From the NCBI GenBank assembly GCA_009760855.2, contig WPIO01000372.1, forward strand, positions 1-64,000: DNA of 64,000 nucleotides. The letters are read 5' to 3'. Source of the stretch: Cristatella mucedo. Taxonomy: Eukaryota; Bryozoa; Phylactolaemata; Cristatellidae. The notes below the pieces were generated by a model. That model saw nothing but the letters and a program-made list of their open reading frames with translations. It made no database searches and was not told where the DNA came from. Position 1 is the stretch's first letter. The number at the start of each line of letters is the position of its first letter. Position numbers and translations under genes: made by a program. Below are positions 1 to 64,000 of this stretch, one piece after another.

Positions 1-850
1 CCGACATGCAGATTTGAAGTTTCAAGTTATTCTGCGATCTGCTGCGAACTCGTGCGAAGAGTGTTTTTTACGTGCGAAAGCCTTGAAACAAGCTGCAGCA
101 CTTTGCTGCCAGCCAGCCCACGCTCCGACATGCAGATTTGAAGTTTCTACATATTCCGCGATCTGCTGCGATCTCGTGCGAAACGTGTTATTTACGTGCG
201 AAATGCTTGAAACAAGGTGCAGCACTCTGTTGCCAGCCAGCTCACGCTCCGACATGCAGATTTGAAGTTTCTAGATATTCCGGGATCTTCTGGGAACTCG
301 TGCGAAATGTGTTATTTACGTGCGAAAAGCTTAAAACAAGGTGAAGCACTCTGCTGCCAGCCAGCCCACGCTCCGACATGCAGATTTGAAGTTTCTAGAC
401 ATTCCGCGATCTGCTGCGAACTCGTGCGAAATGTGTTATTTTCGTGCGAAATACTTGAAACAACGTGCAGCACTCTGCTGCCAGCAAGCTCACGCTCCGA
501 CATGCAGCTTTAAAGTTCCTAGATATTCCGCGATCTGCTGCGAACTCGTGCGAAATGTGTTATTTCCGTTCAAATCGCTTAAACCACGTGCAGCACTCTG
601 TTGCTAGCCAGCACACACTCCGACATGCAGATTTAAAGTTTCTAGATATTCCGGGATCTGCTGGGAACTCGTGCGAAATGTGTTATTTACACGCCAAATG
701 CTTGAAACAAGGTGAAGCACTCAGGTGACAGCCAGCTCACACTCCGACATGCAGATTTAAAGTTTCTAGATATTCCGGGATCTGCTGGGAACTCGTGCGA
801 AATGTGTTATTTACGTGCGAAAAGCTAGAAACAAGGTGAAGCACTCAGGT
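1..850. repeat. Six-unit composite module, copy 1
   Basis: Matches 4465-5314 at a constant offset of 4464, exactly 36 units. Unit order by diagnostic motif: AAGCTGCAGCACTTTGCTG; a unit with CTCTGTTGCC; CCGGGATCTTCTGGGAAC; AAATACTTGAAACAACG with CAGCAAGCTCA and GCAGCTTTAAAG; TTCAAATCGCTT with CCACGTGCAG; CCGGGATCTGCTGGGAAC with CTCAGGTGACA. Relatives lie at about 12.7-13.2, 25.5-25.85, 38.55-39.4 and 57.2-57.95 kb. Confidence 0.87.
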
Positions 851-2739
851 GACAGCCAGCGCACACTCCGACAAGCAGATTTAAAGTTTCTAGATATTCC
901 GGGATCTGCTGGGAACTCGTGCGAAATGTGTTATTTACGTGCGAAAAGCTAAAAAAACAAGGTGAAGCACTCTGGTGACAGCCAGCGCACGCTCCGACAT
1001 GCAGATTTGAAGTTTCTAGATATTCCGCGATCTGCTGCGAACTCGTGCGAAATGTGTTATTTACGTGCCAAATGCTTGAAACAAGGTGAAGCACTCAGGT
1101 GACAGCCAGCGCACACTCCGACATGCAGATTTAAAGTTTCTAGATATTCCGCGATCTGCTGCGAACTCGTGCGAAATGTGTTATTTCCGTGCGAAAAGCT
1201 TGAAACAAGGTGAAGCACTCTGCTGCCAGCCAGCTCACGCTCCGACATGCAGATTTAAAGTTTCTAGATATTCCGCGATCTGCTGCGAACTCGTGCGAAA
1301 TGTGTTATTTACGTGCGAAATGCTTGAAACAAGGTGAAGCACTCTGCTGCCAGCCAGCCCACGCTCCGACATGCAGATTTGAAGTTTCTAGACATTCCGC
1401 CATCTGCTGCTGGAACTCGTGCGAAATGTGTTATTCGAGTGGGAAATGCTCAAAACAAGGTGCAGCACTCTGCTGCCAGCCAGCTCACGCTCCGACATGC
1501 AGATTTGAAGTTTCTAGATATTCCGCGATCTGCTGCGAACTCGTGCGAAATGTGTTATTTACGTGCGAAAAGCTAGAAACAAGGTGAAGCACTCAGGTGA
1601 CAGCCAGTGCACGCTCCGACATGCAGATTTGAAGTTTCTAGATATTCCGGGATCTGCTGGGAACTCGTGCGAAATGTGTTATTTACGTGCGAAAAGCTAG
1701 AAACAAGGTGAAGCACTCAGGTGACAGCCAGCGCACGCTCCGACATGCAGATTTGAAGTTTCTAGATATTCCGCGATCTGCTGCGAACTCGTGCGAAATG
1801 TGTTATTTACGTGCGAAATGCTTGAAACAAGGTGAAGCACTCAGGTGACAGCCAGCACACGCTCCGACATGCAGATTTTAACTTTCTAAATATTTAGCGA
1901 TCTGCTACGAACTCGTGCAAAATGTGTTATTCGAGTGCGAAATGCTCAAAACAAGGTGCAGCACTCTGCTGCCAGCCAGCTCACGCTCCGACATGCAGAT
2001 TTAAAGTTTCTAGATATTCTGCGATCAGCTGCGAACTCGTGCGAAATGTTTTATTTACGTGCAAAAAGCTTGAAACAAGATGAAGCCCTTTGGTGACAGC
2101 CAGCGCGCGCTCCAACATGTAGATTTAAAGCTTCTAGATATTCCGTGATCTGCTGGGAACTCGTGCAAAATGTGTTATTTGAGTGCGAAATGCTTAAAAC
2201 AAGGTACAGCACTCTGCTGCCAGCCAGCGCACGCTCCGACATGCAGATTTGAAGTTTCTAGATTTCCGCGATCTGCTGCGAACTCGTGCGAAATGTGTTA
2301 TTTACGCGCCAAATGCTTGAAACATGATGCAGCACTCTGCAGCTAGCCAGCTCACACTCCGACACCTAGATTTGAAGTTTCTAGATATTCCGCGATCTGC
2401 TGCGAAATCGTGCAAAATGTGTTATTTCCGTGCAAAATGCTTAAAACAAGGAGCAGCACTCTGCTGCCAGCCAGCTCACGCTGCGACATGTAGATTTGAA
2501 GTTTCTAGATATTCCGCGATCTGCTGCAAACTCGTGCGAAATGTGTTTTTTACGTTCAAAACGCTTGAACCAGGTGCAGCACTCTGTTGGCAGCCAGCGC
2601 ATGCTCCGACATGCAGATTTGAAGTTTCTAGATATTCCGCGATCTGCTGCAAACTCGTGCGAAATGTGTTATTTACGTTCAAAACGCTTGAACCAGGTGC
2701 AGCACTCTGTTGCCAGCCAGCACACACTCCGACATGCAG

Positions 2740-4470
2740 ATTTAATGTTTCTGGTTATTCAGCGATCTGCTGCGAACTCGTGCGAAATGTGTTATTCGAG
2801 TCCGAAATGCTCAAAATAAGGTGCAGCACTCAGCTGCCAGCCAGCTCACGTTCCGACATGTAGATTTGAAGTTCCTAGATATTCGGCGTTCTACTGTGAA
2901 CTCGTGCGAAATGTGTTATTTACTTGCGAAATGCTTGAAACGAGGTGCAGTACTTTGCAGCCAGCCAGCGCACGCTCCGACAAGCAGATTTGAAGTTTCT
3001 GGATATTCCGCGATCTGCTGCGAACTCGTACGAAATGTGTTATTCGAGTGGGAAATGCTCAAAACAAGGTGAAGCACTCTGCTGCCAGCCAGCCCACGCT
3101 CCGACATGCAGATTTGAAGTTTCAAGATATTCTGCGATCTGCTGCGAACTCGTGCGAAATGTGTTATTTACGTGCGAAATACTTGAAACAAGGTGCAGCA
3201 CTCTGCTGCCAGCAAGCTCACGCTCCGACATGCAGATTTAAAGTTCCTAGATATTCCTCGATCTGCTGCGAACTCGTGCGAAATGTGTTATTTACGTTCA
3301 AAACGCTTGAACCAGGTGCAGCACTCTGTTGCCAGCCAGCACACACTCCGACATGCAGATTTAAAGTTTCTAGATATTCCGGGATCTGCTGGGAACTCGT
3401 ACGAAATGTGTTATTTACGTGCGAAAATCTAGAAACAAGGTGAAGCACTCTGGTGATAGCCAGCGCACGCTCCGACATGCAGATTTGAAGTTTCTAGATA
3501 TTCCGCGATCTGCTGCGAACTCGTGCGAAATGTGTTATTCAAGTGCGAAATGCTCAAATCAAGGTTCGGCACTCTGCTGCAAGCCGGCGCACACTCCGAC
3601 ATGCAGATTTGAAGTTTGTAGATATTCAGCGATCTGCTGCGAACTCGTGCGAAATGTGTTATTTACGTGCGAAAAGCTTAAAACAAGGTGAAGCCCTTAC
3701 GTGACAGCAAGCTCACGCTCCGACATGCAGATTTAAAGTTCCTAGATATTCCGCGATCTGCTGCAAACTCGTGCGAAATATGTTATTTCCTTGCGAAAAG
3801 CTTGAAACAAGGTGAAGCACTCTGCTGTCAGCCAGCACACGCTCCGACGAGAAGAATTTGAAGTTTCTAGTTATTCCGCGATCTGCTGCGAACTCGTGCG
3901 AAATGTGTTATTCGAGTCCGAAATGCTCAAAATAAGGTGCAGCACTCAACATCCAGCCAGCTCACGCTCCGACATGTAGATTTGAAGTTCCTAGATATTC
4001 GGCGTTCTACTGTGAACTCGTGCGAAATGTGTTATTTACGTGCGAAATACTTGAAACAAGGTGCAGCCCTATGCTGTCAGCCAGCACACGCTCCGATGAG
4101 CAGATTTGAAGTTTCTAGTTATTCCGCGATCTGCTGCGAACTCGTGCGAAATGTGTTATTCGAGTCCGAAATGCTCAAAATAAGGTGCAGCACTCAACAT
4201 CCAGCCAGCTCACGCTCCGACATGTAGATTTGAAGTTCCTAGATATTCGGCGTTCTACTGTGAACTCGTGCGAAATGTGTTATATACGTGCGAAATGCTT
4301 GAAACAAGGTGCAGTACTTTGCAGCCAGCTAGCTCACGCTCCGACGAGCAGATTTGAAGTTTCTGGATATTCCGCGATCTGCTGCGAACTCGTGCGAAAT
4401 GTGTTATTCGAGTGCGAAATGCTCAAAACAAGGTGCAGCACTCTGCTGCCAGCCAGCTCACGCTCCGACA
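2740..4470. repeat. 1.7-kb segmental duplication, copy 1
   Basis: Matches 25176-26783. The offset is 22436 from 2755 to about 3400 and 22311-22312 from about 3690 onwards. The change is about one unit, so one unit was lost from the distal copy or gained here. It spans the GCAGTACTTTGCAGCC markers (2946, 4310), the GGTTCGGCAC marker (3563) and the 248-bp dimer at 3838-4333. Confidence 0.82.
3838..4333. repeat. 248-bp dimer repeat, two copies
   Basis: Alternating unit types: one with CTAGTTATTCCGCG and TTCGAGTCCGAAATGCTC, the other with CATGTAG and TTCGGCGTTCTACTGTGAAC. The pair repeats at 248-249 bp, and both copies share the unusual arm CTCAACATCCAGCC. Confidence 0.85.
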
Positions 4471-5314
4471 TGCAGATTGGAAGTTTCAAGTTATTCTGCG
4501 ATCTGCTGCGAACTCGTGCGAAGAGTGTTTTTTACGTGCGAAACGCTTGAAACAAGCTGCAGCACTTTGCTGCCAGCCAGCCCACGCTCTGACATGCAGA
4601 TTTGAAGTTTCTAGATATTCCGCGATCTGCTGCGATCTCGTGCGAAATGTGTTATTGACGTTCGAAATGCTTGAAACAAGGTGCAGCACTCTGTTGCCAG
4701 CCAGCTCATGCTCCGACATGCAGATTTGAAGTTTCTAGATATTCCGGGATCTTCTGGGAACTCGTGCGAAATGTGTTATTTACGTGCGAAAAGCTTAAAA
4801 CAAGGTGAAGCACTCTGCTGCCAGCCAGCCCACGCTCCGACATGCAGATTTGAAGTTTCTAGACATTCCGCGATCTGCTGCGAACTCGTGCGAAATGTGT
4901 TATTTACGTGCGAAATACTTGAAACAACGTGCAGCACTCTGCTGCCAGCAAGCTCAGGCTCCGACATGCAGCTTTAAAGTTCCTAGATATTCAGCGATCT
5001 GCTGCGAACTCGTGGGAAATGTGTTGTTTACGTTCAAATCGCTTGAACCACGTGCAGCACTCTGTTGCTAGCCAGCACACACTCCGACATGCAGATTTAA
5101 AGTTTCTAGATATTCCGGGATCTGCTGGGAACTCGTGCGAAATGTGTTATTTACGCGCCAAATGCTTGAAACAAGGTGAAGCACTCAGGTGACAGCCAGC
5201 GCACACTCCGACATGCAGATTTAAAGTTTCTAGATGTTCCGGGATCTGCTGGGAACTCGTGCGAAATGTGTTATTTACGTGCAAAAAGCTAGAAACAATG
5301 TGAAGCACTCAGGT
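4465..5314. repeat. Six-unit composite module, copy 2
   Basis: Partner of 1-850. After 5314 it diverges: copy 1 continues with CCGGGATC units, while this copy passes into CCGCGATC canonical units that open territory C1. Confidence 0.87.
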
Positions 5315-5345
5315 GACAGCCAGCGCACCCTCCGACATGCAGATT

Positions 5346-7465
5346 TGAAGTTTCTAGATATTCCGCGATCTGCTGCGAACTCGTGCGAAATGTGTTATTC
5401 GAGTGCGAAATGCTTGAAACAAGGTGCAGCACTATGCTGCCAGCCAAAGCACGCTCCGACATGCAGATTTAAAGTTTCTAGATATTCTGCGATCAGCTGC
5501 GAACTCGTGCGAAACGTGTTATTTACGTGCGAAATGCTTGAAACAAGGTGCAGCACTCTGCTGCCAGCCAGCGCACGCTCCGACATGCAGATTTAAAGTT
5601 TCTAGATATTCCGTGATCTGCTTGCGAACTCGTGCGAAATGTGTTATTTACGTGCGAAATGCTTGAAACAAGGTGCAGCACTCTGCTGCCAGCCAGCGCA
5701 CGCTCCGACATGCAGATTTGAAGTTTCTAGACATTCCGCGATCTGCTGCGAACTCGTGCGAAATGTGTTATTTACGTGCGAAATGCTTGAAACAAGGTGC
5801 AGCACTCTGCTGCCAGCCAGCGTACGCTCCGACAAGCAGATTTGAAGTTTCTAGATATTCCGCGATCTGCCGCGAACTCGTGCGAAATGTGTTATTTACG
5901 TGCGAAATGCTTTAAACAAGGTGCAGCACTCTGCAGCCAGCCAGCGCACGCTCCGACATGCAGATTTGAAGTTTCTAGATATTCCGCGATCTGCTGCGAA
6001 CTCGTGCGAAATGTGTTATTTACGTGCGAAATGCTCAAAACAAGGTGCAGCACTCTGCTGCCAGCCAGCGCACGCTCCGACATGCAGATTTGAAGTTTCT
6101 AGATATTCCGCGATCTGCTGCGAACTCGTGCGAAATGTGTGTTATTCGAGTGCGAAATGCTCAAAACAAGGTGCAGCACTCTGCTGCAGCCAGCGCACAC
6201 TCCGACATGCAGATTTGAAGTTTCTAGATATTCAGCGATCTGCTGCGAACTCGTGCGAAATGTGTTATTTACGTGCGAAATTCTTGAAACACAAGGTGCA
6301 GCACTCTGCTGCAGTGCTAGCCAGCCAGCGCACGCTCCGACGAGCAGATTTGAAGTTTCTGGTTATTCCGCGATCTGCTGCGAACTCGTGCGAAATGTGT
6401 TATTCGAGTGCGAAATGCTCAAAACAAGGTGCAGCACTCTGCTGCCAGCCAGCTCACGCTCCGACATGCAGATTTGAACTTTCTAGATATTCGGCGATCT
6501 GCTGCGAACTCGTGCGAAACGTGTTATTTACGTGCGAAATTCTTTACACAAGGTGCAGCACTCTGCTGCTGCCAGCCAGCGCACGCTCCGACGAGCAGAT
6601 TTGAAGTTTCTGGATATTCCGCGATCTGCTGCGAACTCGTGCGAAATGTGTTATTCGAGTGCGAAATGCTCAAAACAAGGTGCAGCACTCTGCTGCCAGC
6701 CAGCGCACGCTCCGACATGCAGATTTGAAGTTTCTAGATATTCAGCGATCTGCTGCGAACTCGTGCGAAATGTGTTATTTACGTGCGAAATGCTTGAAAC
6801 AAGGTACAGCACTCTGCTGCCAGCCAGTGCTCACTCCGACATGCAGATTTAAAGTTTCTAGATATTCCGCGATCTGCTGCGATTTCGTGCGAAATGTGGT
6901 ATTTACGTGCGAAATGCTTGAAACAAGGTGCAGCACTCTGCTGCCAGCCAGCGCACGCTCCGACATGCAGATTTGAAGTTTCTAGATATTCCGCGATCTG
7001 CTGCGAACTCGTGCGAAATGTGTTATTTACGTGCGAAATGCTTGAAACAAGGTACAGCACTCTGCTGCCAGCCAGCGCTCACTCCGACATGCAGATTTAA
7101 AGTATCTAGATATTCCGGGATCTGCTGGGAACTCGTGCGAAATGTGTTATTTGCGTGCGAAATGCTTGAAACAAGGTGCAGCACTCTGCTGCCAGCCAGC
7201 GCACGCTCCGACATGCAGATTTGAAGTTTCTGGATATTCCGCGATCTGCTGCGAACTCGTGCGAAATGTGTTATTTACGTGCGAAATGCTTTAAACAAGG
7301 TGCAGCACTCTGCTGCCAGCCAGCTCACGCTCCGACATGCAGATTTGAAGTTTCTAGATATTCCGCGATCTGCTGCGAACTCGTGCGAAACGTGTTATTT
7401 ACGTGCGAAATGCTTTAAACAAGGTGCAGCACTCTGCTGTCAGCCAGAGCACGCTCCGACAAGAA
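5346..7465. repeat. Homogeneous territory C1
   Basis: About 17 units, most with the canonical right arm GCAGCACTCTGCTGCC and left arm CCGCGATCTGCTGCGAAC. A recurrent linker variant is TTCGAGTGCGAAATGCTC, often with GACGAGCAG and TCTGG in the following unit (about 6.13-6.7 kb). One TCTGCGATCAGCTGCGAAC unit lies near 5486. Units in this stretch carry small insertions such as CTGCTGCTGCC near 6565. Confidence 0.75.
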
Positions 7466-8230
7466 GATTTGAAGTTTCTAATTACTCGGCGATCTACTGC
7501 GAACTCGTGCGACATGTGTCATTCGAGTCCGAAATGCTCAAAATAAGGTGCAGCACTCAGCTGCCAGCCAGCTCACGCTCCGACATGTAGATTTGAAGTT
7601 CCTAGATATTCGGCGTTCTACTGTGAACTCGTGCGAAATGTGTTATTTACGTGCGAAATGCTTAAAACAAGGTGAAGCCCTTTGGTGACAGCCAGCCCAC
7701 TCTCCGACGAGCAGATTTGAAGTTTCTAGATATTACGTGATCTGCTGGGAACTCGTGCAAAATGGGTTAATCGAGTGCGAAAAGCTTGAAACAAGGTACA
7801 GCACTCTGCTGCCAGCCAGCCCACACTCCGACACCGAGATTTGAAGTTTCTAGATATTCCGGGATCTGCTGGGAACTCGTGCGAAATGTGTCATTTACGT
7901 GCGAAAAGCTTGAAACAAGGTGAAGCACTCTGGTGACAGCCAGCTCACGCTCCGACGTGCAGATTTGAAGTTTCTAGATATTCCGCGATCTGCTGCGAAC
8001 TCGTGCGAAATGTGTTATTCGAGTGCGAAATGCTTGAAACAAGGTGCAGCACTCTGCTGCCAGCCGGCGCACGCTCCGACATGCAGATTTAAAGTTTCTA
8101 GATATTTTGCGATCAGCTGCGAACTCGTGCGAAACGTGTTATTCGAGTGCGAAATGCTCAAATCAAGGTTTGGCACTCTGCTGCAAGCCGGCGCACACTC
8201 CGACATGCACATTTGAAGTTTGTAGATATT
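7466..8230. repeat. Third, shorter copy of the 13.7/27.9-kb block
   Basis: Matches 14177-14941 at offset 6711 (54 units plus 15 bp) and 28402-29166. It keeps GGGTTAATCGAG, the GACGTGCAG unit, TATTTTGCGATCAGC and the GGTTTGGCAC marker (8167). It lacks the upstream dimer units of the longer copies. It has CACCGAGATTT where the others have CACCTAGATTT. Confidence 0.87.
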
Positions 8231-8457
8231 CAGCGATCTGCTGGGAACTCGTGCGAAATGTGTTATTTACGTGCGAAAAGCTTGAAACAAGGTGCAGCAC
8301 TCTGCTGCCAGCCAGCTCACGCTCCGACATGCAGATTTGAAGTTTCTAGATATTCCGCGATCTGCTGCGAACTCGTGCTAAATGTGTTATTTACGTGCGA
8401 AAAGCTTGAAACAAGGTGAAGCACTCTGCTGTCAGCCAGCGTACGCTCCGACAAGCA

Positions 8458-8544
8458 GATTTAAAGTTTCTGGTTATTCAGCGATCTGCTGCGCAAAACA
8501 AGGTGCAGCACTCTGCTGACAGCCAGCGCACGCTCCGACATGCA
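8458..8544. repeat. Shortened unit, 87 bp
   Basis: CTGCTGCG is joined directly to CAAAACAAGG, removing 37 bp covering the AACTCGTGCGAAATG region and the linker. The deleted parent was of the TTCGAGTGCGAAATGCTC type, judged from the CAAAAC that remains. Confidence 0.93.
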
Positions 8545-8870
8545 GATTTAAAGTTTCTAGATATTCCGCGATCTGCTGCGAACTCGTGCGAAATGTGTTA
8601 TTCGAGAGCGAAATGCTTGAAACAAGGTGCAGCACTCTGCTGCCAGCCAGCTCACGCTCCGACATGCAGGTTTAAAGTTTCTAGATATTCTGCGATCTGC
8701 TGGGAACTCGTGCGAAATGTGTTATTTACGTGCGAAAGGCTTGAAACCAGGTGCAGCACTCTGCAGCCAGCCAGCACCCGCTCCGACATGCAGATTTGAA
8801 GTTTCTAGATATTCCGCGATCTGCTGCTAACTCTTGCGAAACGTGTTATTTACGTGCGAAATGCTTTAAA

Positions 8871-11800
8871 AAAGGTGCAGCACTCAGCTGCGAGCAAGCG
8901 CACGCTCCGACATGCAGATTTGAAGTGTCTACATATTCCGCGATCTCCTGCGAACTCGTGCGAAACGTGTTATTTACGTGCGAAATGCTTTAAACAAGGT
9001 GCAGCACTCTGCTGCCAGCCAGCGCACGCTCCGACATGCAGATTTGAAGTTTCTAGATATTCCGCAATCTGCTGCGAACTCGTGCGAAACGTGTTATTTA
9101 CGTGCGAAATGCTTTAAACAAGGTGCAGCACTCTGCTGCCAGCCAGCGCACGCTCCGACTTGCAGATTTGAAGTTTCTAGATATTCCGCAATCTGCTGCG
9201 AACTCGTGCGAATCGTGTTATTTACGTGCGAAATGCTTTAAACATGGTGCAGCACTCTGCTGCCAGCCAGGGCACGCTCCGACAAGCAGATTTGAAGTTT
9301 CTACATATTCCGCGATCTGCTGCGAACTCGTGCGAAATGTGTTTTTTGCGTGCGAAATGCTTTAAACAAGGTGCAGCACTCTGCTGCCAGCCAGCGCACG
9401 CTCCGACATGCAGATTTGAAGTTTCTAGATATTCCGCGATCTGCTGCGAACTCGTGCGAAATGTGTTATTTACGTGCGAAATGCTTTAAACAAGGTGCAG
9501 CACTCTGCTGCCAGCCAGCGCACGCTCCGACATGCAGATTTGAAGTTTCTAGATATTCCGCGATCTGCTGCGAACTCGTGCGAAACGTGTTATTTACGTG
9601 CGAAATGCTTTAAACATGGTGCAGCACTCTGCTGCCAGTCAGCGCACGCTCCGACAAGCAGATTTGAAGTTTCTACATATTCCGCGATCTGGTGCGAACT
9701 CGTGCGAAACGTGTTATTTACGTGCGAAATGCTTCAAAACAAGGTGCAGCACTCTGCTGCCAGCCAGCTCACGCTCCGACATGCAGATTTGAAGTTTCTA
9801 GATATTCCGCGATCTGCTGCGAACTCGTGCGAAATGTGTTATTTACGTGCGAAATGCTTGAAACAAGGTGCAGCACTCTGCTGCCAGCCAGCACACGCTC
9901 CGACATGCAGATTTGAAGTTTCTAGATGTCTGCGATCTGCTGCGAACTCGTGCGAAATGTGTTATTTACGTGCGAAATGCTTGAAACAAGGTGCAGCACT
10001 CTGCTGCCAGCCAGCTCACGCTCCGACATGCAGATTTGAAGTTTCTAGATATTCGGCGATCTGCTGCGAACTCGTGCGAAATGTGTTATTTACGTGCGAA
10101 ATGCTTAAAACAAGGTGCAGCACTCTGCAAAATGTGTTATTTACGTGCGAAATGCTTGAAACAAGGTGCAGCACTCTGCTGCCAGCCAGCCCACGCTCCG
10201 ACATGCAGATTTGAAGTTTCTAGATATTCCGGGATCTGCTGGGAACTCGTGCGAAATGTGTTATTTACGTGCGAAAAGCTGGAAACAAGGTGAAGCACTC
10301 TGCTGACAGCCAGCTCACGCTCCGACATGCAGATTTGAAGTTTCTAGATATTCCGCGATCTGCTGCGAACTCGTGCGAAATGTGTTATTTACGTGCGAAA
10401 TGCTTGAAACAAGGTGCAGCACTCTGCTGCCAGCCAGCGCACGCTCCGACATGCAGATTTAAAGTTTCTAGATATTCCGCGATCTGCTGCGAACTCGTGC
10501 GAAATGTGTTTTTTACGTGCAAAATGCTCAAAACAAGGTGCAGCACTCTGCTGCCAGCCAGCGCACACTCCGACATGCAGATTTGAAGTTTCTAGATATT
10601 CCGGGATCTGCTGGGAACTCGTGCGAAATGTGTTATTTACGTGCGAAAAGCTTGAAAACAAGGTGCAGCACTTTGCTGCCAGCCAGCTCACGCTCCGACA
10701 TGCAGATTTGAAGTTTCTAGATATTCCGCGATCTGCTGCGAACTCGTGCGAAATGTGTTATTTACGAGTGCGAAATGCTTGAAACAAGGTACAGCACTCT
10801 GCTGCCAGCCAGCTCACGCTCCGACATGCAGATTTGAAGTTTCTAGATATTCCGCGATCTGCTGCGAACTCGTGCGAAATGTGTTATTTACGTGCGAAAT
10901 GCTTGAAACAAGGTGCAGCACTCTGCTGCCAGCCAGCTCACGCTCCGACATGCAGATTTAAAGTTTCTAGATATTCCGCGATCTGCTGCGAACTCGTGCG
11001 AAATGTGTTATTTACGTGCGAAAAGCTTGAAACAAGGTGCAGCACTCTGCTGCCAGCCAGCGCACGCTCCGACAAGCAGATTTGAAGTTTCTGGATATTC
11101 TGCGATCTGCTGCGAACTCGTGCGAAATGTGTTATTCAAGTGCGAAATGCTCAAAACAAGGTGCAGCACTCTGCTGCCAGCCAGCGCACGCTCCGACATG
11201 CAGATTTGAAGTTTCTAGATATTCCGCGATCTGCTGCGAACTCGTGCGAAATGTGTTATTTACGTGCGAAATGCTAGAAACAAGGTGCAGCACTCTGCTG
11301 CCAGCCAGCGCACGCTCCGACATGCAGATTTGAAGTTTCTAGATATTCCGCGATCTGCTGCGAACTCGTGCAAAACGTGTTATTTACGTGCGAAATGCTT
11401 TAAACAAGGTGCAGCACTCTGCTGCCAGCCAGCGCACGCTCCGACATGCAGATTTGAAGTTTCTAGATATTCCGGGATCTTCTGGGAACTCGTGCGAAAT
11501 GTGTTATTTACGTTCAAAACGCTTGAACCAGGTGCAGCACTCTGTTGCTAGCCAGCGCACACTCCGACATGCAGATTTAAAGTTTCTAGATATTCCGGGA
11601 TCTTCTGGGAACACGTGCGAAATGTTTTATTTACGTGCGAAAAGCTAGAAACAAGGTGAAGCACTCTGCTGCCAGCCAGCTCACGCTCCGACATGCAGAT
11701 TTAAAGTTTCTAGATATTCCGCGATCTGCTGCGAACTCGTGCGAAATGTGTTATTTACGTGCGAAATGCTTGAAACAAGGTGCAGCACTCTGCTGCCAGC

Positions 11801-12550: not shown

Positions 12551-12555
12551 ACGCT

Positions 12556-25174: not shown

Positions 25175-25175
25175 G

Positions 25176-43334: not shown

Positions 43335-43347
43335 CTTGAAACAAGGT

Positions 43348-53200: not shown

Positions 53201-54169
53201 GCTTGAAACAAGGTGCAGCACTCTGCTGCCAGCCAGCTCACGCTCCGACACGCAGATTTAAAGTTTCTAGATATTCCGCGATCTGCTGCGAACTCGTGCG
53301 AAATGTGTTATTCGAGTGCAAAAATGCTTTAAACATGGTGCAGCACTCTGCTGCCAGCCAGCTCACGCTCCGACATGCAGATTTGAAGTTTCTAGATATT
53401 CAGCGATCTGCTGCGAACTCGTGCGAAATGTGTTATTTTTACGTGCCAAATGCTTGAAACAAGGTGCAGCACTCTGCTGCCAGCCAGCTCACGCTCCGAC
53501 ATGCAGATTTGAAGTTTCTAGATATTCCGCGATCTGCTGCGAACTCGTGCAAAATGTGTATTTACGTGCGAAATGCTTGAAACAAGGTGCAGCACTCTGC
53601 TGCCAGCCAGCTCACGCTCCGACATGCAGATTTGAAGTTTCTAGATATTCCGCGATCTGCTGCGAACTCGTGCGAAATGTGTTATTTACGTGCGAAATGC
53701 TTTAAACAAGGTGCAGCACTCTGCTGGCAGCCAGCTCACGCTCCGACATGCAGATTTGAAGTTTCTAGATATTCCGCGATCTGCTGCGAACTCGTGCGAA
53801 ATGTGTTATTTACGTGCGAAAATGCTTGAAACCAGGTGCAGCTCTCTGCTGCCAGCCCGAGCACGCTCCGATATGCAGATTTAAAGTTTCTAGATATTCC
53901 GCGATCTGCTGCGAACTCGTGCGAAATGTGTTATTCGAGTCCGAAATGCTCAAAATAAGGTGCAGCACTCAGCTGCCAGCCAGCTCACGCTCCGACATGT
54001 AGATTTGAAGTTTCTAGATATTCCGCGATCTGCTGCGAACTCGTGCGAAATGTGTTATTTACGTGCGAAATGCTTGAAACAAGGTGCAGCACTCTGCTGC
54101 CAGCCAGCAGCACGCTCCGACATGCAGATTTGAAGTTTCTAGATATTCCGCGATCTGCTGCGAACTCGT

Positions 54170-54615
54170 GCGAAATGTGTTATTCGAGTGGGAAATGCTC
54201 AAAACAAGGTGCAGCACTCTGCTGCCAGCCAGCTCACGCTCCGACATGCAGATTTGAAGTTTCAAGATATTCTGCGATCTGCTGCGAACTTGTGCGAAAT
54301 GTGTTATTTACGTTCGAAATGCATGAAACATTGTGCAGCACTCTGCTGCCAGCCAGCTCATGCTCCAACATGCAGATTTGAAGTTTCTAGATTTCAGCGA
54401 TCTGCTGCGAACTCGTGCGAAGTGTGTTTTTTACGTGCGAAATGCTTGAAACAAGCTGCAGCACTTTGCTGCCAGCCAGCCCACGCTCTGACATGCAGAT
54501 TTGAAGTTTCTAGATATTCCGCAATCTGCTGCGAACTCGTGCGAAATGTGTTATTGACGTTCGAAATGCTTGAAACAAGGTGCAGCACTCTGTAGCCAGC
54601 CAGCTCACGCTCCGA
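54170..54615. repeat. Partial seven-unit module inside C7
   Basis: Matches 44979-45424 at a constant offset of 9191 (TTCGAGTGGGAAATGCTC, TTTCAAGATATTCTGCGA, CTCCAACATGCAG, AAGCTGCAGCACTTTGCTG, TTGACGTTCGAAATGCTTG). It differs by GCATGAAACATTGTGCAGC in place of GCTTGAAACATTG. Confidence 0.8.
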
Positions 54616-56120
54616 CATGCAGATTTGAAGTTTCTAGATATTCCGCGATCTGCTGCGAACTCGTGCGAAATGTGTTATTTACGTTCGAAATGCATGAAAA
54701 CATGGTGCAGCACTCTGCTGCCAGTCAGCGCACGCTCCGACATGCAGATTTGGAGTTTCTAGATATTCCGCGATCTGCTGCGAACTCGTGCGAAATGTGT
54801 TATTTACGTGCGAAATGCTTTAAACAAGTGTGCAACACTCTGCTGCCAGCCAGCTCACGCTCCGACATGCAGATCTAAAGTTTCTAGATATTCCGCGATC
54901 TGCTGCGAACTCGTGCGAAATGTGTTATTTACGTGCGAAATGCTTGAAAACAAGGTGCAGCACTCTGCTGCCAGCCAGCTCACGCTCCGACATGCAGATT
55001 TGAAGTTTCTAGATATTCCGCGATCTGCTGCGAACTCGTGCGAAATGTGTTATTTACGTGCGAAATGCTTGAAACAAGGTGCAGCACTCTGCTGCACAGC
55101 CAGCTCAGCACGCTCCGACATGCAGATTTGAAGTTTCTAGATATTCCGCGATCTGCTGCGAACTCGTGCGAAATGTGTTATTTGACGTGCGAAATGCTTG
55201 AAACAAGGTGCAGCACTCTGCTGCCAGCCAGCTCACGCTCCGACATGCAGATTTAAAGTTTCTAGATATTCCGCGATCTGCTGCGAACTCGTGCGAAATG
55301 TGTTATTTACGTGCGAAATGCTTGAAACAAGGTGCAGCACTCTGCTGCCAGCCAGCGCACGCTCCGACATGCAGATTTGAAGTTTCTAGATATTCTGCGA
55401 TCTGCTGCGAACTCGTGCGAAATGTGTTATTTACGTGCGAAATGCTTGAAACAAGGTGCAGCACTCTGCTGCCAGCCAGCTCACGCTCCAACATGCAGAT
55501 TTGAAGTTTCTAGATATTCCGCAATCTGCTGCGAACTCGTGCGAAATGTGTTATTGACGTTCGAAATGCTTTAAACAAGGTGCAGCACTCTGCTGCCAGC
55601 CAGGGCACGCTCCGACATGCAGATTTGAAGTTTCTAGATATTCCGCGATCTGCTGCGAACTCGTGCGAAATGTGTTATTTACGTGCGAAATGCTTGAAAC
55701 AAGGTGCAGCACTCTGCAGCCAGCCAGCTCACGCTCCGACATGCAGATTTGAAGTTTCTAGATATTCCGCGATCTGCTGCGAACTCGTGCGAAATGTGTT
55801 ATTCGACGTGCGAAATGCTTGAAACAAGGTGCAGCACTCTGTTGCTGCAGCCAGGGCACGCTCCGACATGCAGATTTAAAGTTTCTAGATATTCCGCGAT
55901 CTGCTGCGAACTCGTGCGAAATGTGTTATTTACGTGCGAAAAGCTTGAAACAAGGTGAAGCACTCTGCTGCCAGCCAGCCCACGCTCCGACATGCAGATT
56001 TGAAGTTTCTAGATATTCCGCGATCTGCTGCGAACTCGTGCGAAACGTGTTATTCGAGTGCGAAATGCTTGAAACAAGGTGCAGCACTCTGCTGCCAGCC
56101 AGCGCACGCTCCGACATGCA

Positions 56121-56179
56121 GATTTAAAGTTTCTAGATATTCCGCGATCTGCTGCGAACTCGGCATGCTCCGACATGCA
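56121..56179. repeat. Shortened unit, 59 bp
   Basis: GCGAACTCG is joined to GCATGCTCCGACATG, removing about 65 bp including the linker and dyad arm. It lies about 200 bp before the left edge of territory M8. Confidence 0.92.
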
Positions 56180-56392
56180 GATTTGAAGTTTCTACATATT
56201 CCGCGATCTGGTGCGAACTCGTGCGAAACGTGTTATTTACGTGCGAAATGCTTGAAACATGGTGCAGCACTCAGCTGCCAGCCAGCCCAAGCTCCGACAT
56301 GCAGATTTGAAGTTTCTAGATATTCCGCGATCTGCTGCGAACTCGTGCAAAATGTGTTATTTACGTGCGAAATGCTTGAAACAAGGTGCAGC

Positions 56393-58577
56393 ACTCTGCT
56401 GCCAGCCAGCTCACGCTCCGACATGTAGATTTGAAGTTTCTAGATATTCCGCGATCTGCTGCAAACTCGTGCGAAATGTGTTATTGACGTTCGAAATGCT
56501 TGAACCAGGTGCAGCTCTCTGTTGGCAGCCAGCGCATGCTCCGACATGCAGATTTGAAGTTTCTAGATATTCCGCGATCTGCTGCGAACTCGTGCGAAAT
56601 GTGTTATTTCCGTGGGAAATGCTTGAACCAGGTGCAGCACTCTGCTGCCAGCCTGCTCACGCTCCGACATGTAGATTTGAAGTTTCTAGATATTCCGCGA
56701 TCTGCTGCGAACTCGTGCGAAATGTGTTATTTACGTGCGAAAAGCTTGAAACAAGGTGAAGCACTCTGCTGCCAGCCAGCCCACGCTCCGACATGCAGAT
56801 TTGAAGTTTCTAGATATTCCGCGATCTGCTGCGAACTCGTGCGAAATGTGTTATTTACGTGCGAAATGCTTGAAACAAGGTGCAGCGCTCTGCTGTCAGC
56901 CAGCGCACGCTCCGACGAGCAGATTTAAAGTTTCTGGTTATTCAGCGATCTGCTGCGAACTCGTGCGAAATGTGTTATTCGAGTCCGAAATGCTCAAAAT
57001 AAGGTGCAGCACTCAGCTGCCAGCAAGCTCACGCTCCGACATGTAGATTTAAAGTTTCTAGATTTCAGCGATCTGCTGCGAACTCGTGCGAAGTGTGTTT
57101 TTTACGTGCGAAATGCTTGAAACAAGCTGCAGCACTTTGCTGCCAGCCAGCCTACGCTCTGACATGCAGATTTGAAGTTTCTAGATTTCAGCGATCTGCT
57201 GTGAACTCGTGCGAAGTGTGTTTTTTACGTGCGAAATGCTTGAAACAAGCTGCAGCACTTTGCTGCCATCCAGTCCACGCTCTGACATGCAGATTTGAAG
57301 TTTCTAGATATTCCGCGATCTGCTGCGAACTCGTGCGAAATGTGTTATTGACGTTCGAAATGCTTGAAACAAGGTGCAGCACTCTGTAGCCAGCCAGCCC
57401 ACGCTCCGACATGCAGCTTTAAAGTTCGTAGATATTCCGCGATCTGCTGCGAACTCAAGCGAAATGTGTTATTGACGTTCGAAATGCTTGAAACAAGGTG
57501 CAGCACTCTGTAGCCAGCCAGCCCACGCTCCGACATGCAGCTTTAAAGTTTCTAGATATTCCGGGATCTTCTGGGAACTCGTGCGAAATGTGTTATTTAC
57601 GTGCGAAAAGCTTGAAACAAGGTGAAGCACTCTGCTGCCAGCCAGCCCACGCTCCGACATGCAGATTTGAAGTTTCTAGACATTCCGCGATCTGCTGCGA
57701 ACTCGTGCGAAATGTGTTATTTACGTGCGAAATACTTGAAACAAGGTGCAGCACTCTGCTGCCAGCCAGCTCACGCTCCGACATGCAGATTTGAAGTTTC
57801 TAGATATTCCGCGATCTGCTGCAAACTCGTGCGAAATGTGTTATTTACGTTCAAAACGCTTGAAGCAGGTGCAGCACTCTGTTGCTAGCCAGGGCACACT
57901 CCGACATGCAGATTTAAAGTTTCTAGATATTCCGGGATCTGTTGGGAACTCGTGCGAAAAGTGTTATTGACGTTCGAAAATCTTGAAACAAGGTGCAGCA
58001 CTCTGCTGACTGCCAGGGCACGCTCCGAATGCAGATTTGAAAGTTTCTAGATATTCCGCGATCTGCTGCGAACTCGTGCGAAATGTGTTATTTACGTGCG
58101 AAATGCTTGAAACAAGGTGCAGCACTCTGCTGCCAGCCAGCGCACGCTCCGACATGCAGATTTAAAGTTTCTAGATATTCTGCGATCAGCTGCGAACTCG
58201 TGCGAAATGTGTTATTCGAGTGCGAAAAGCTCAAATTAAGGTTCGGCACTCTGCTGCAAGCAGGAGCACACTCCGACATGCAGATTTGAAGTTTCTAGAT
58301 TTCCGCGATCTGCTGCGAACTCGTGCGAAATGTGTTATTTACGCGCCAAATGCTTGAAACAAGGTGCAGCACTCTGCTGCTAGCCAGCTCACACTCCGAC
58401 ACCTAGATTTGAAGTTTCTAGATATTCCGCGATCTGCTGCGAAATCGTGCAAAATGTGTTATTTACGTGCAAAATGCTTGAAACAAGGTGCAGCACTCTG
58501 CTGCCAGCCAGCTCGCGCTCCGACATGTAGATTTGAAGTTTCTAGATATTCCGCGATCTGCTGCAAACTCGTGCGAA
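56393..58577. repeat. 2.1-kb segmental duplication, copy 2
   Basis: Partner of 37900-39960. It contains one extra unit of the TTCGAGTCCGAAATGCTC type near 56.94-57.06 kb, and a replaced patch at about 57956-58009. Beyond 58577 it follows the 48.5-50.25 kb block instead. Confidence 0.83.
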
Positions 58578-60365
58578 ATGTGTTATTGATGTTCGAAATG
58601 CTTGAACCAGGTGCAGCTCTCTGTTGGCAGCCAGCGCATGCTCCGACATGCAGATTTGAAGTTTCTAGATATTCCGCGATCTGCTGCAATTTCGTGCGAA
58701 ATGTGTTATTTACGTTCAAAACGCTTGAACCAGGTGCAGCACTCTGTTGCCAGCCAGCACACACTCCGACATGCAGATTTAAAGTTTCTAGATATTCCGC
58801 GATCTGCTGCGAACTCGTGCGAAATGTGTTATTTCCGTGCGAAAAGCTTGAAACAAGGTGAAGCACTCTGCTGCCAGCCAGCCCACGCTCCGACATGCAG
58901 ATTTGAAGTTACTAGACATTCCGCGATCTGCTGCGAACTCGTGCGAAATGTGTTATTTACGTGCGAAATACTTGAAACAAGGTGCAGAGCTCTGCTGTCA
59001 GCTTGCGCACGCTCCGACGAGCAGATTTAAAGTTTCTGGTTATTCAGCGATCTGCTGCGAACTCGTGCGAAATGTGTTATTCGAGTCCGAAATGCACAAA
59101 ATAGGGTGCAGCACTCAGCTGCCAGCCAGCTCACGCTCCGACATGTAGATTTGAAGTTCCTAGATATTCGGCGTTCTACTGTGAACTCGTGCGAAATGTG
59201 TTATTTACGTGCGAAATGCTTGAAACAAGGTGCAGTACTTTGCAGCCAGCCAGCGCACGCTCCGACGAGCAGATTTGAAGTTTCTGGATATTCCGCGATC
59301 TGCTGCGAACTCGTGCGAAATGTGTTATTCGAGTGGGAAATGCTCAAAACAAGGTGCAGCACTCTGCTGCCAGCCAGCTCACGCTCCGATATGCAGATTT
59401 GAAGTTTCAAGATATTCTGCGACCTGCTGCGAACTTGTGCGAAATTTGTTATTTACGTTCGAAATGCTTGAAACATTGTGCAGCACCCTGCTGCCAGCCA
59501 GCTCACGCTCCAACATGCAGATTTGAAGTTTCTTGATTTCAGCGATCTGCTGCGAACTCGTGCGAAGTGTGTTTTTTACGTGCGAAATGCTTGAAACAAG
59601 CTGCAGCACTTTGCTGCCAGCCAGCCCACGCTCTGACATGCAGATTTGAAGTTTCTAGATATTCCGCGATCTGCTGCGAACTCGTGCGAAATGTGTTATT
59701 GACGTTCGAAACGCTTGAACCAGGTGCAGCACTCTGTTGCTAGCCAGGGCACACTCCGACATGCAGATTTAAAGTTTCTAGATATTCCGGGATCTGTTGG
59801 GAACTCGTGCGAAATGTGTAATTTACGTGCGAAAAGCTAGAAACAAGGTGAAGCACTCACGTGACAGCAGGCGCACGCTCCGACATGCATAGTTGAAGTT
59901 TCTAGATATTCCGCGATCTGCTGCGAACTCGTGCGAAATGTGTTATTCGAGTGCGAAATGCTTGAAACAAGGTGCAGCACTCTGCTGCCAGCCAGCGCAC
60001 GCTCCGACATGCAGATTTAAAGTTTCTAGATATTCTGCGATCAGCTTCGAACTCGTGCGAAATGTGTTATTCGAGTGCGAAATGCTCAAATCAAGGTTCG
60101 GCACTCTGCTGCAAGCCGGCGCACACTCCGACATGCAGATTTGAAGTTTGTAGATATTCAGCGATCTGCTGCGAACTCGTGCGAAATGTGTTATTTACGG
60201 GCGAAAAGCTTGACACAAGGTGAAGCCCTTAGGTGACAGCCAGCGGAGGCTCCGACATGTAGATTTGAAGTCTCTAGATATTCCGTGATCTGCTGGGAAC
60301 TCGTGCAAAATGTGTTATTTGAGTGCGAACTGCTTGAAACAAGGTACAGCACTCTGCTGCCAGCC
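57923..60365. repeat. Copy 2 of the 2.45-kb segmental duplication
   Basis: Partner of 47805-50250, about 10.12 kb away. That distance is not a whole number of units (81 units plus about 72 bp), which means at least one partial-unit event lies between the copies. Single-base differences account for the gradual change in offset. Its left 650 bp is also shared with 39.3-39.96 kb at a constant offset of 18617. Confidence 0.85.
58265..58880. repeat. Five-unit block shared with 63345-63960
   Basis: Constant offset of 5080 (41 units minus 4 bp). Order: GCGCCAAATGCTTG; GCTAGCCAGCTCAC with CACCTAGATTT; AAATCGTGCAAAATG; CAGCTCGCGCT with CATGTAG; TTGATGTTCGAAATGC with GCAGCTCTCTGTTGGCAGCC; TTCAAAACGCTTGAACCAGG. 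Related copies lie at 39.66-40.0, 48.25-48.65 and, more diverged, 2.3-2.8 kb. Confidence 0.84.
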
Positions 60366-60380
60366 AGCGCACGCTCCGAC

Positions 60381-63040
60381 ATGCAGATTTGAAGTTTCTA
60401 GATATTCCGCGATCTGCTGCGAACTCGTGCGAAATGTGTTATTCGAGTGGGAAATGCTCAAAACAAGGTGCAGCACTCTGCTGCCAGCCAGCTCACGCTC
60501 CGATATGCAGATTTGAAGTTTCTAGATATTCCGCGATCTGCTGCGAACTCGTGCGAAATGTGTTATTTACGTGCGAAATGCTTGAAACAAGGTGCAGCAC
60601 TCTGCTGCCAGCCAGCTCACGCTCCGACATGCAGATTTGAAGTTTCTAGATTTCCGCGATCTGCTGCGAACTCGTGCGAAATGTGTTTTTTACGTGCGAA
60701 ATGCTTGAAACAAGCTGCAGCACTTTGCTGCCAGCCAGCCCATGCTCTGACATGCAGATTTGAAGTTTCTAGATATTCAGCGATCTGCTGCGAACTCGTG
60801 CGAAATTTGTTATTGACGTTCGAAATGCTTGAAACAAGGTGCAGCACTCTGCTGCCAGCCAGCTCACGCTCCGACATGCAGATTTGAAGTTTCTAGATAT
60901 TCCGCGATCTGCTGCGAACTCGTGCGAAATGTGTTATTTACGTGCGAAATGCTTTAAACATGGTGCAGCACTCTGCTGCCAGTCAGCGCACGCTCCGACA
61001 TGCAGATTTGAAGTTTCTTGATATTCCGCGATCTGCTCCGAACTCGTGCGAAATGTGTTATTGATGTGCGAAATGCTTGAAACAAGGTGCAGCACTCTGT
61101 TGCCAGCCAGCACACGCTCCGACATGCAGATTTGAAGTTTCTAGATATTCCGCGATCTGCTGCGAACTCGTGCGAAATGTGTTATTGATGTTCGAAATGC
61201 TTGAAACAAGGTGCAGCACTCTGCTGCCAGCCAGCTCACGCTCCGACATGTAGATTTGAAGTTTCTAGATATTCCGCGATCTGCTGCGAACTCGTGCGAA
61301 ATGTGTTATTTACGTGCGAAAAGCTTGAAACAAGGTGCAGCACTCTGCTGCCAGCCAGCTCACGCTCCGACATGCAGATTTGAAGTTTCTAGATATTCCG
61401 CGATCTGCTGCGAACTCGTGCGAAACGTATTATTTTACGTGCGAAATACTTGAAACAAGGTGCAGCACTCTGCTGCCAGCCAGCTCACGCTCCGACATGC
61501 AGATTTGAAGTTTCTAGATATTCCGCGATCTGCTGCGAACTCGTGCAAAATGTGTTATTTACGTGCGAAATGCTTGAAACAAGGTGCAGCACTCTGCTGC
61601 CAGCCAGCTCACGCTCCGACATGTAGATTTGAAGTTTCTAGATATTCCGCGATCTGCTGCAAACTCGTGCGAAATGTGTTATTTATGTGCGAAATGCTTG
61701 AAACAAGGTGCAGCTCTCTGCTGCCAGCCAGGGCACGCTCCGACATGCAGATTTGAAGTTTCTAGATATTCCGCGATCTGCTGTGAACTCGTGCGAAATG
61801 TGTTATTTACGTTCGAAATGCATGAACATAGGTGCAGCACTCTGCTGCCAGCCAGCACACACTCCGACATGCAGATTTAAAGTTTCTAGATATTCCGCGA
61901 TCTGCTGCGAACTCGTGCGAAATGTGTTATTTACGTGCGAAATGCTTGAAACAAGGTGAAGCACTCTGCTGCCAGCCAGCTCACGCTCCGACATGCAGAT
62001 TTGAAGTTTCTAGATATTCCGCGATCTGCTGCGAACTCGTGCGAAATGTGTTATTTGAGAGCGAAATGCTTGAAACAAGGTGCAGCACTCTGCTGCCAGC
62101 CAGCTCACGCTCCGACATGCAGATTTGAAGTTTCTAGATATTCCGCGATCTGCTGCGAACTCGTGCGAAATGTGTTATTTACGTGCGAAATGTTTGAAAC
62201 AAGGTGCAGCACTCTGCTGCCAGCCAGCTCACGCTCCGACATGCAGATTTGAAGTTTCTAGATATTCCGCGATCTGCTGGGAACTCGTGCGAAATGTGTT
62301 ATTTGAGTGCGAAATGCTTGAAACAAGGTGCAGCACTCTGCTGCCAGCCAGCTCACGCTCCGACATGCAGATTTGAAGTTTTCTAGATTTCCGCGATCTG
62401 CTGCGAACTCGTGCGAAATGTGTTATTTACGTGCGAAATGCTTGAAACAAGGTGCAGCACTCTGCTGCCAGCCAGCTCACGCTCCGACATGCAGATTTGA
62501 AGTTTCTACATATTCAGCGATCTGCTGCGAACTCGTGCGAAACGTGTTATTTACGTGCGAAATGCTTTAAACAAGGTGCAGCACTCTGCTGCCAGCCAGC
62601 CCACGCTCCGACCTGCTGATTTGAAGTTTCTAGACATTCCGCGATCTGATGCGAACTCGTGCGAAATGTGTTATTTACGTGCGAAATACGTGAAACAAGG
62701 TGCAGCACTCTGCTGCCATCCTGCTCACGCTCCGACATGCAGATTTGAAGTTTCTAGATATTCCGCGATCTGCTGCGAACTCGTGCGAAACGTATTATTT
62801 ACGTGCGGAAAATGCTTGAAACAAGGTGAAGCACTCTGCTGCCAGCCAGCCCACGCTCCGACATGCAGATTTGAAGTTTCTAGATATTCCGCGATCTGCT
62901 GCGAACTCGTGCGAAATGTGTTATTTACGTGCGAAATGCTTGAAACAAGGTGCAGCACTCTGCTGCCAGCCAGCTCACGCTCCGACATGCAGATTTGAAG
63001 TTTCTAGATATTCCGCGATCTGCTGCGAACTCGTGCGAAA
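60381..63040. repeat. Homogeneous territory C8
   Basis: Near-consensus units with scattered mixed-type arms: AAGCTGCAGCACTTTGCTG at 60.71 kb, TTATTGATGTTCGAAATGC linkers near 61.18 kb, and a GCATGAACATAGGTG linker near 61.82 kb. GACCTGCTGATTT near 62.61 kb resembles CATGCTGATTT near 16.33 kb, and both share the AAATACGTGAAAC linker. Confidence 0.7.
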
Positions 63041-64000
63041 TGTGTTATTTCCGTGGGAAAAGCTTGAAACAAGGTGAAGCACTCTGCTGCCAGCCAGCCC
63101 ACGCTCCGACATGCAGATTTGAAGTTTCTTGATATTCCGCGATCTGCTGCAAACTCGTGCGAAATGTGTTATTGATGTTCGAAATGCTTGAACCAGGTGC
63201 AGCACTCTGCTGCCAGCCTGCTCACGCTCCGACATGTAGATTTGAAGTTTCTAGATATTCCGCGATCTGCTGCGAACTCGTGCGAAATGTGTTATTTCCG
63301 TGCGAAAAGCTTGAAACAAGGTGAAGCACTCTGCTGCCAGCCAGCCCACGCTCCGACATGCAGATTTGAAGTTTCTCGATTTTCGCGATCTGCTGCGAAC
63401 TCGTGCGAAATGTGTTATTTACGCGCCAAATGCTTGAAACAAGGTGCAGCACTCTGCTGCTAGCCAGCTCACCATCCGACACCTAGATTTGAAGTTTCTA
63501 GATATTCCACGATCTGCTGCCAAATCGTGCAAAATGTGTTATTTACGTGCAAAATGCTTGAAACAAGGTGCAGCACTCTGCTGCCAGCCAGCTCGCGCTT
63601 CGACATGTAGATTTGAAGTTTCTAGATATTCCGCGATCTGCTGCAAACTCGTGCGAAATGTGTTATTGATGTTCGAAATGCTTGAACCAGGTGCAGCTCT
63701 CTGTTGGCAGCCAGGGCATGCTCCGACATGCAGATTTGAAGTTTCTAGATATTCTGCGATCTGCTGCAAACTCGTGCGAAATGTGTTATTTACGTTCAAA
63801 ACGCTTGAACCAGGTGCAGCACTCTGTTGCCAGCCAGCACACACTCCGACATGCAGATTTAAAGTTTCTAGATATTCCGCGATCTGCTGCGAACTCGTGC
63901 GAAATGTGTTATTTCCGTGCGAAAAGCTTGAAACAAGGTGAAGCCCTTAGGTGACAGCCAGCTCAGGCTCCGACATGTAGATTTGAAGTCTCTAGATATT
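63041..64000. repeat. Mixed-subtype territory M9, cut by the window end
   Basis: 63098-63373 matches 38040-38315 (offset 25058, shared rare TTTCTTGATATTCC and GCCTGCTCACG). 63345-63960 matches 58265-58880 (offset 5080). The final 60 bases begin another copy of the CCCTTAGGTGACAGCC and AAGTCTCTAGATATT unit seen at 37401, 50107 and 60222. The order of blocks differs from M8, so M9 is rearranged relative to it. Confidence 0.82.

Follow-up and report, generated by a model that had tools for sequence, protein, structure and literature searches.

The 64,000-bp window analysed here, bases 1-64,000 of the 66,002-bp contig C302 (WPIO01000372.1) in the 572-Mb, 688-contig assembly of the bryozoan Cristatella mucedo, consists from end to end of a single 124-bp satellite arranged head-to-tail in one orientation (514 copies, parsed here into 518 units). 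Along the window, tracts of units that lie near the consensus alternate with tracts of mixed, divergent units. The reading we favour, at slightly better than even confidence, places the window inside an animal satellite array where islands of higher-order repeat (HOR) are surrounded by near-consensus monomers that are unordered and well mixed. Our analysis confirmed that divergence falls into two states, with borders about one unit wide. It also showed that much of the mixed compartment is made of fragments of a few HOR cassettes, block-copied within C302, found also on contigs C390, C222 and C484 and closely similar to a tandem HOR on C616, and that the near-consensus units carry variants which are the majority form in other arrays.

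Two states with sharp borders

Differences were counted after aligning units to the consensus; 510 of the 518 units were used, eight truncated or partial ones were dropped, and column 118 of the unit, hypervariable in both compartments (T 214, G 198, C 64, A 38 among the 518 units), was excluded. A two-state negative-binomial hidden Markov model (HMM; six parameters), with state means of 3.65 and 9.28 differences per unit, was set against a smooth first-order autoregressive (AR(1)) latent-rate model with four parameters. The two-state model did better in the window, with ln L of -1352.7 against -1381.3 and a Bayesian information criterion (BIC) of 2743 against 2787, and BIC was likewise lower for two states than for one, three or four. 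A separate two-state fit reached -1364.1, against a mean of -1436.2 and a best of -1431.5 in 20 shuffles of unit order. The resulting segmentation has 11 mixed and 10 near-consensus segments of 0.6-6.9 kb each, separated by 20 borders (Table 1). When half of the columns set the border and the other half measured it, the step was one unit wide in two of three such splits and blurrier in the third.

A sequence-only reading of the window had described nine mixed and eight near-consensus territories alternating with sharp borders at a 1-8 kb scale. The alternation and its sharpness held up, while the counts and lengths are replaced by those of the HMM. For the 16 borders that it had placed, the median distance to an HMM border is 96.5 bp, less than one unit (random mean about 1134 bp, none of 2000 draws as close), although two of them, at 32.1 and 56.4 kb, are off by more than 500 bp (HMM 32.8 and 56.9 kb). 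Diagnostic markers, said to occur almost only in mixed blocks, do so without exception: all 24 matches, 16 to TTCGGCGTTCTACTGTGAAC at up to one mismatch and eight exact ones to GGTTCGGCAC, fall in mixed segments of the window, in a test that is partly circular because the markers themselves add to divergence. The two outcomes that the same reading had named as fatal to itself were not what the window gave, since divergence does not vary smoothly there and the subtypes carrying these markers are not scattered at random.

Two other causes of the pattern were considered and rejected. Breaks in register (10 of them, from 13 odd-length units after two adjacent pairs were merged and the last partial unit dropped) lie a median of 1084 bp from a border, against 1024 bp for random positions. 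Decay of CpG sites does not account for the divergence either, as CpG and other C/G sites behave alike in each state (C-to-T/G-to-A rates of 0.052 versus 0.040 in mixed and 0.017 versus 0.013 in near-consensus units). Smooth drift of divergence was rejected for the window and, with the window's parameters kept unchanged, for C390, where one mixed run is 106 units long and where the 235 units parsed from the first 30,000 of its 43,206 bp gave -641.4 with two states, -655.8 with the smooth model and -670.4 in the best of 200 shuffles. With the same parameters C616 (108 units) also favoured two states, -306.0 against -318.1, and is nearly all mixed (102 units, then 6).

Mixed segments as block-copied islands

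Block copies were located by local alignment weighted for rare variants, and coverage was counted above the null maximum. They reach 18-19 units in length, the best scoring 330.7 against 63.5 for the best in four within-state shuffles, and of the 254 mixed units 155 are covered, whereas in the near-consensus compartment it is 6 of 264; examples are given in Table 1. The block duplication that had been proposed for the mixed blocks is thus strongly supported. Repeated four-unit words of minor types numbered 37, against a mean of 0.01 and a maximum of 2 in 200 shuffles. Units in mixed segments are more alike than expected at lag 2 (none of 500 shuffles was as low) but not at lag 1 (51 of 500).

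Clustering of 1,068 units from the window and related contigs showed the same ordered cassettes recurring in the strings of unit types. A PJFCKGB-like cassette is common to C302, C390, C222 and C484, and a longer cassette is shared with C616. The seven-unit cassette at 44554-45420 returns at 48773-49640, partly at 58890-59632, and in C222, C484 and C390. C616 is organised as a tandem HOR, matching itself at a lag of 31 over 27 units (0.81 differences per unit) and at a lag of 39 over 22 units (0.55), and window bases 27,520-29,630 differ from three places within it by 0.82-1.06 differences per unit. HOR-like lags were also seen in C484 (12 and 2), C222 (20), C390a (6) and C338 (3). The family is therefore a higher-order-repeat satellite, tandem in C616 and present in the window as fragments only. 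At the score used, no cassette shared with the window was found in the 6-20 kb taken from each of C301, C338, C369, C199 and C59.

The segments that we call X, Y and Z illustrate how such blocks are arranged. Z (56.9-60.5 kb) corresponds to X (37.2-40.0 kb) followed by Y (47.8-50.3 kb), the two matches overlapping by about 0.6 kb. In the window X and Y stand 7.8 kb apart with mostly near-consensus units between them, and Z is without that stretch.

An unordered near-consensus background

The near-consensus stretches had been described as homogenised, a label that is relative only: 260 such units differ from one another by a mean of 6.51 of 124 positions, twice their distance to the consensus being 7.39. 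Distances are nearly the same within blocks (mean 6.42) and between them (6.53). Of the two amplification regimes put forward in the sequence-only reading, block duplication in one compartment and short-range homogenisation of single units in the other, the latter is contradicted for recent events. Adjacent near-consensus units are 6.35 apart, against 6.42 +/- 0.08 (standard deviation) in within-block shuffles (91 of 500 as low), and no lag-1 effect was seen in 11 further stretches (z -1.1 to 1.9), some of which show HOR-like lags instead. Among the four lags tested in near-consensus units, lag 6 alone dips slightly (6.2 versus 6.40, 18 of 500). No near-consensus variant with at least 12 carriers was locally clustered at |z| > 3, either at one unit or within 10 units. 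A search for block copies in these stretches found none, the best six-unit match scoring -4.0 against a shuffled mean of -4.8 and maximum of 7.2. Both tests had power: planted eight-unit copies were recovered in 40 of 40 cases in near-consensus stretches, and 5% of recent adjacent copies would lower the neighbour mean to 6.08 (z -4.3). Near-consensus units look like draws from a pool that is mixed over at least 64 kb.

The variants in this pool are mostly common ones. Singletons in the window make up only 39 of the 961 near-consensus variant occurrences (4%), and variants with at least 30 carriers account for 63%. Four variants, 26C, 60C, 85T and 91T, are commoner in near-consensus than in mixed units. 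The frequency of the first three is 1.0 in C301a, 0.85-0.91 in C338, 0.67-0.90 in C199, 0.07-0.15 in near-consensus units and 0.01-0.04 in mixed units; that of 91T is 0.03 in C301a and 0.60 in C199. Two stretches of C301 (30,001-40,000 and 50,001-60,000) hold another, very homogeneous subfamily, with 2.15 and 3.14 differences per unit when compared with the subfamily's own consensus. There 26C, 60C, 85T and 114A form the majority, as they do not in the window, and two bases share position 51. All eight combinations of 26C, 60C and 85T are present among near-consensus units. These C301 markers look like broken-up haplotypes, because they co-occur 2.8- to 4-fold above chance and yet 38 of 60 carriers hold one only.

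Mechanism and competing explanations

If the window does consist of HOR islands in a mixed background, gene conversion, or repair that resembles it, would let near-consensus units exchange short stretches array-wide and also with other arrays, and the mixed islands would be too divergent to join this exchange as much, spreading only through long-tract duplication. Such duplication could proceed via break-induced replication, which is proposed for HORs in the relevant passages of a review (PMC8997354), or via unequal exchange. The near-consensus tracts would break into the HOR order later than the block copying, or independently of it, since borders are seldom common to the copies: among the ends of 83 block-copy anchors (162 of 166 classified), 100 are mixed/mixed, 55 mixed/near-consensus and 7 near-consensus on both sides, against about 7.3 expected under independence. 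A fixed HOR phase at which near-consensus tracts begin had seemed likely at 50.26 and 60.5 kb, and was dropped in view of this independence. Four-gamete conflict fractions at matched sample sizes, which depend on the make-up of the sample, were 0.33 in near-consensus units, 0.49 in C301 and 0.11 (6 of 57) in context-verified mixed copies. For gene conversion, then, within-unit shuffling and a lack of local clustering were seen, a pattern that fits crossover too. We think it unlikely that the further claim holds, namely that two exchange systems meet at borders one unit wide, the near-consensus tracts forming a genome-wide pool that trades short patches across contigs and the HOR islands, mostly shut out of that pool, moving solely as intact blocks.

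Several observations weigh against this account. Random mixed units taken without context matching gave a conflict fraction of 0.30, against 0.33 for near-consensus units, so that shuffling in itself does not set the background apart; low values are confined to the context-matched copies. Within-unit recombination in a satellite can stem from crossovers rather than conversion, and the two processes are not separable here. Mixed copies showed 74 reversions to consensus versus 8 third-base changes, a ratio that comes out too high, since variants originating within the family tree give the same appearance as reversions; against a neutral spectrum the excess is about 2.2-fold (31% versus 14%). Reversion as proof of conversion, for which the excess was first put at 20-fold over mutation and later, in context-verified copies, at 18.5-fold over third-base changes and 26-fold over mutation, was given up as it shrank to that value. 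The length of exchange tracts is poorly resolved, with excess co-occurrence of variants strong at 1-2 bp only and the C301 markers partly linked over about 60 bp. The border-sharing figures are approximate, as the 83 anchors overlap one another, and the test of flank likeness comprised 3-7 pairs per offset. The array is partly assembled, and near-consensus block copies with unassembled sources would therefore be missed. Near-consensus units are also closer than mixed ones to the old flank of the array on C222 (0.700 versus 0.675, first 120 units each). Lastly, two contigs did not clearly repeat the two-state pattern under the window's parameters. In C222 (126 units) two states gave -338.8 against -341.0 for the smooth model, inside the shuffled range (best -331.3), and in C484 (151 units) the smooth model was better, at -391.3 against -401.6, with unit order non-random (best shuffle -406.8), so that smooth drift was not rejected there.

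The main rival is a past burst followed by import of variants: a single monomer would have invaded an older HOR array by rapid amplification (e.g., rolling-circle copying followed by reinsertion), would since have gained scattered variants and would not be undergoing homogenisation now. The near star-like distances reported above speak for such an event, as do the 45 of 260 near-consensus units that share one haplotype outside column 118, the lack of local structure, and the apparent independence, from copy to copy, of the places where borders cut the HOR order. We nevertheless consider it rather improbable. Near-consensus variants are mostly shared with other compartments or arrays and are not new, so a burst would still need exchange, and the consensus states resemble the flank no less than the mixed ones do, which speaks against a recent wave having spread over a mixed layer of greater age. 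Indeed, the idea of near-consensus units as a newer layer over old mixed ones was rejected on these grounds, with only 9 of 34 common mixed variants matching the majority base of the C222 flank. The 34 variants do have a mean frequency of 0.23 in the flank, against 0.044 for other bases in the same columns, and part of the mixed variation is therefore old.

The model of the sequence-only reading, in which short-range duplication and unequal exchange of single units keep near-consensus stretches alike and block duplication does so for mixed ones, would account for the sharp two-state structure and for the block copies, for near-consensus lengths that differ between otherwise matching blocks, and for the slight dip at lag 6. 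It is hard to square with neighbours that are no more alike than shuffled units, in the window and in the 11 other stretches, and with common variants that are not locally clustered, when recent copies making up as little as 5% of adjacent pairs would have shown; for the model to stand, exchange would have to remove the likeness of neighbours more quickly than duplication produces it, and we regard it as decidedly unlikely. Least probable, and by our estimate very improbable, is an assembly artefact, with reads from separate HOR and monomeric arrays joined into a chimera. The contig is indeed a 66-kb all-satellite piece ending inside an array, and two of three other such contigs (C222 and C484) are without a clear sharp pattern. 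Against this, the same cassettes stand beside near-consensus units in C390, C222 and C484, of which C222 is a 15.8-Mb contig running into the array, and the two-state pattern repeats in C390. Only 109 of the 3,432 variant occurrences are singletons, so base quality looks high.

Table 1. Segments of the window as called by the HMM, with their main block copies (~ marks matching intervals; coordinates in C302).
Segment	Position	Strand	Units	Remarks
Mixed	1..5455	+	44	mean 9.2 differences; internal block copy 1-867 ~ 4465-5331
Near-consensus	5456..6076	+	5	short, weakly supported
Mixed	6077..6711	+	5	short, weakly supported
Near-consensus	6712..7455	+	6	short, weakly supported
Mixed	7456..8906	+	12	7456-8199 copies 14167-14910 and 28389-29135
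Near-consensus	8907..11935	+	24	
Mixed	11936..16946	+	41	13795-14910 copies 28015-29135, matches C616
Near-consensus	16947..23875	+	56	mean 3.2 differences
Mixed	23876..26777	+	23	24124-24991 ~ 30992-31859
Near-consensus	26778..27396	+	5	short, weakly supported
Mixed	27397..32821	+	44	27520-29630 (17 units) matches three C616 HOR places
Near-consensus	32822..37182	+	35	
Mixed, X	37183..40025	+	23	37925-40025 ~ 56418-58765; 37431-38418 ~ 64001-64956 (past window end)
Near-consensus	40026..44677	+	38	
Mixed	44678..45296	+	5	within 7-unit cassette 44554-45420
Near-consensus	45297..47781	+	20	
Mixed, Y	47782..50260	+	20	48030-50260 ~ 58149-60375 (18 units)
Near-consensus	50261..56911	+	54	
Mixed, Z	56912..60499	+	29	matches X then Y directly joined
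Near-consensus	60500..63105	+	21	
Mixed	63106..64000	+		at window end

Genomic context and features of the unit

Past the end of the window the satellite continues up to base 66,002 of C302, and one 20-mer of the unit has 2,667 exact matches across the genome. The 124-bp family reaches the contig ends of C222 (15.8 Mb), C199 (4.8 Mb) and C59 (0.88 Mb) and is present on the small contigs C301, C338, C369, C390, C484 and C616, a list that covers the matches listed and the stretches fetched; further contigs may carry the family. With one unit in long head-to-tail arrays on several contigs, it is a satellite DNA. On C222 at least 16 kb of diverged unit relatives (15,768,001 to about 15,784,000) lie beside the young array, whose edge is marked by a sharp step; the nearer 8 kb are about 30% diverged and the remainder consists of lax matches only. 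The diverged flank on C484 (1-10,000) is a 12-unit, 1,488-bp higher-order repeat (91% matches), that of C222 being more disordered. This architecture, with satellite at the ends of the multi-megabase C222 and C199 and a diverged flank at C222, is suggestive of a centromeric satellite, for which the family is a candidate. A strand switch within the satellite occurs at C369:8,945-9,068, with minus-strand units to 8,945 and plus-strand units from 9,068.

Self-matches of the window peak at offsets of 10, 20, 30 and 40, and GTGCGAA-like motifs are repeated within the unit; there is a hint that the 124-bp unit may have grown from shorter repeats. The most conserved 15-bp windows begin at columns 47-54 in mixed units, C222, C484, C390, C616 and the old flank, and this peak is not seen in near-consensus units, C301, C338 or C199. 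Columns 47-68 could be a candidate protein-binding box. A 6-bp dyad at columns 95-109 was rejected as a selected box, as its conservation ranks 66 of 124 in near-consensus and 115 in mixed units, which is not unusual in the window; it ranks 1 in C338.

No RNA genes were found at Rfam gathering scores within window bases 1-10,000, and bases 17,000-19,500 had no match in a plasmid collection, a result uninformative for animal sequence. The mitochondrial cox1 gene, with its best match on the 21-kb contig C688, reads well with TGA taken as tryptophan and AGA/AGG as serine, the invertebrate pattern. Partial cox1-like matches lie elsewhere, at C166:4,375,626-4,376,390, C83:2,826-3,735, C549:2,641,741-2,642,010 and C299:634,220-634,540; those on C166 and C549 carry TGA only, and those on C83 and C299 further stops too. 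These matches outside C688 are probably nuclear copies of mitochondrial DNA.

Comparison with known satellites and implications

HOR satellites, domains that differ in homogeneity, monomeric flanks and conversion are all known from primates. No report of this satellite sequence was found in the searches made of open-licence papers, and the one paper there that mentions 124 bp deals, in the part consulted, with a chimeric beetle element and not with a 124-bp satellite unit. In the passages compared here, human alpha-satellite HOR arrays have domains defined by diagnostic variants, with conversion passing variants among repeats (PMC2853522). The array of C. mucedo is similar in that monomers are amplified as ordered HORs and domains of differing homogeneity lie in one array; its unit is 124 bp, however, against about 171 in human alpha-satellite. 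It also differs in that the uniform part is made of unordered monomers and the HOR fragments form the divergent islands, whereas the homogeneous human arrays in those passages are HORs (PMC2853522). Homogeneous and divergent human compartments with monomeric flanks, as described in excerpts of two further sources (PMC9549924, PMC8997354), show a comparable gap in divergence, with the diverged flank on C222 as the counterpart here. The human divergent compartments in these excerpts lie toward the flanks; here the change between mixed and near-consensus tracts comes every 0.6-7 kb and within the array itself. Arrays in which minor HOR variants are interspersed are also described for humans, and so is a layer at centromere 8 where HOR types are intermixed (PMC8997354, in part). 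Fine interleaving of ordered and unordered tracts was not seen described in the primate passages compared.

Whether crossing over or conversion is the homogenising force of satellites is an old dispute, on which the parts of PMC2853522 and PMC8997354 consulted bear. Schindelhauer and Schwarz 2002, as cited in passages of PMC2853522 and PMC9549924, proposed conversion, not unequal crossing over, as the main homogeniser of human X alpha-satellite. A role for conversion is suggested here by the near-consensus compartment; the human X proposal, as cited, concerned an HOR array, and here unordered monomers lie beside HOR islands. The array bears on the dispute by setting block-copied islands within kilobases of an unordered background. 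Comparing neighbour similarity, with a power check on planted copies, offers a simple test for any assembled array, and near-consensus stretches that look homogenised need not stem from recent local duplication. If two exchange systems do meet in this satellite, sequence likeness itself would be the switch between them.

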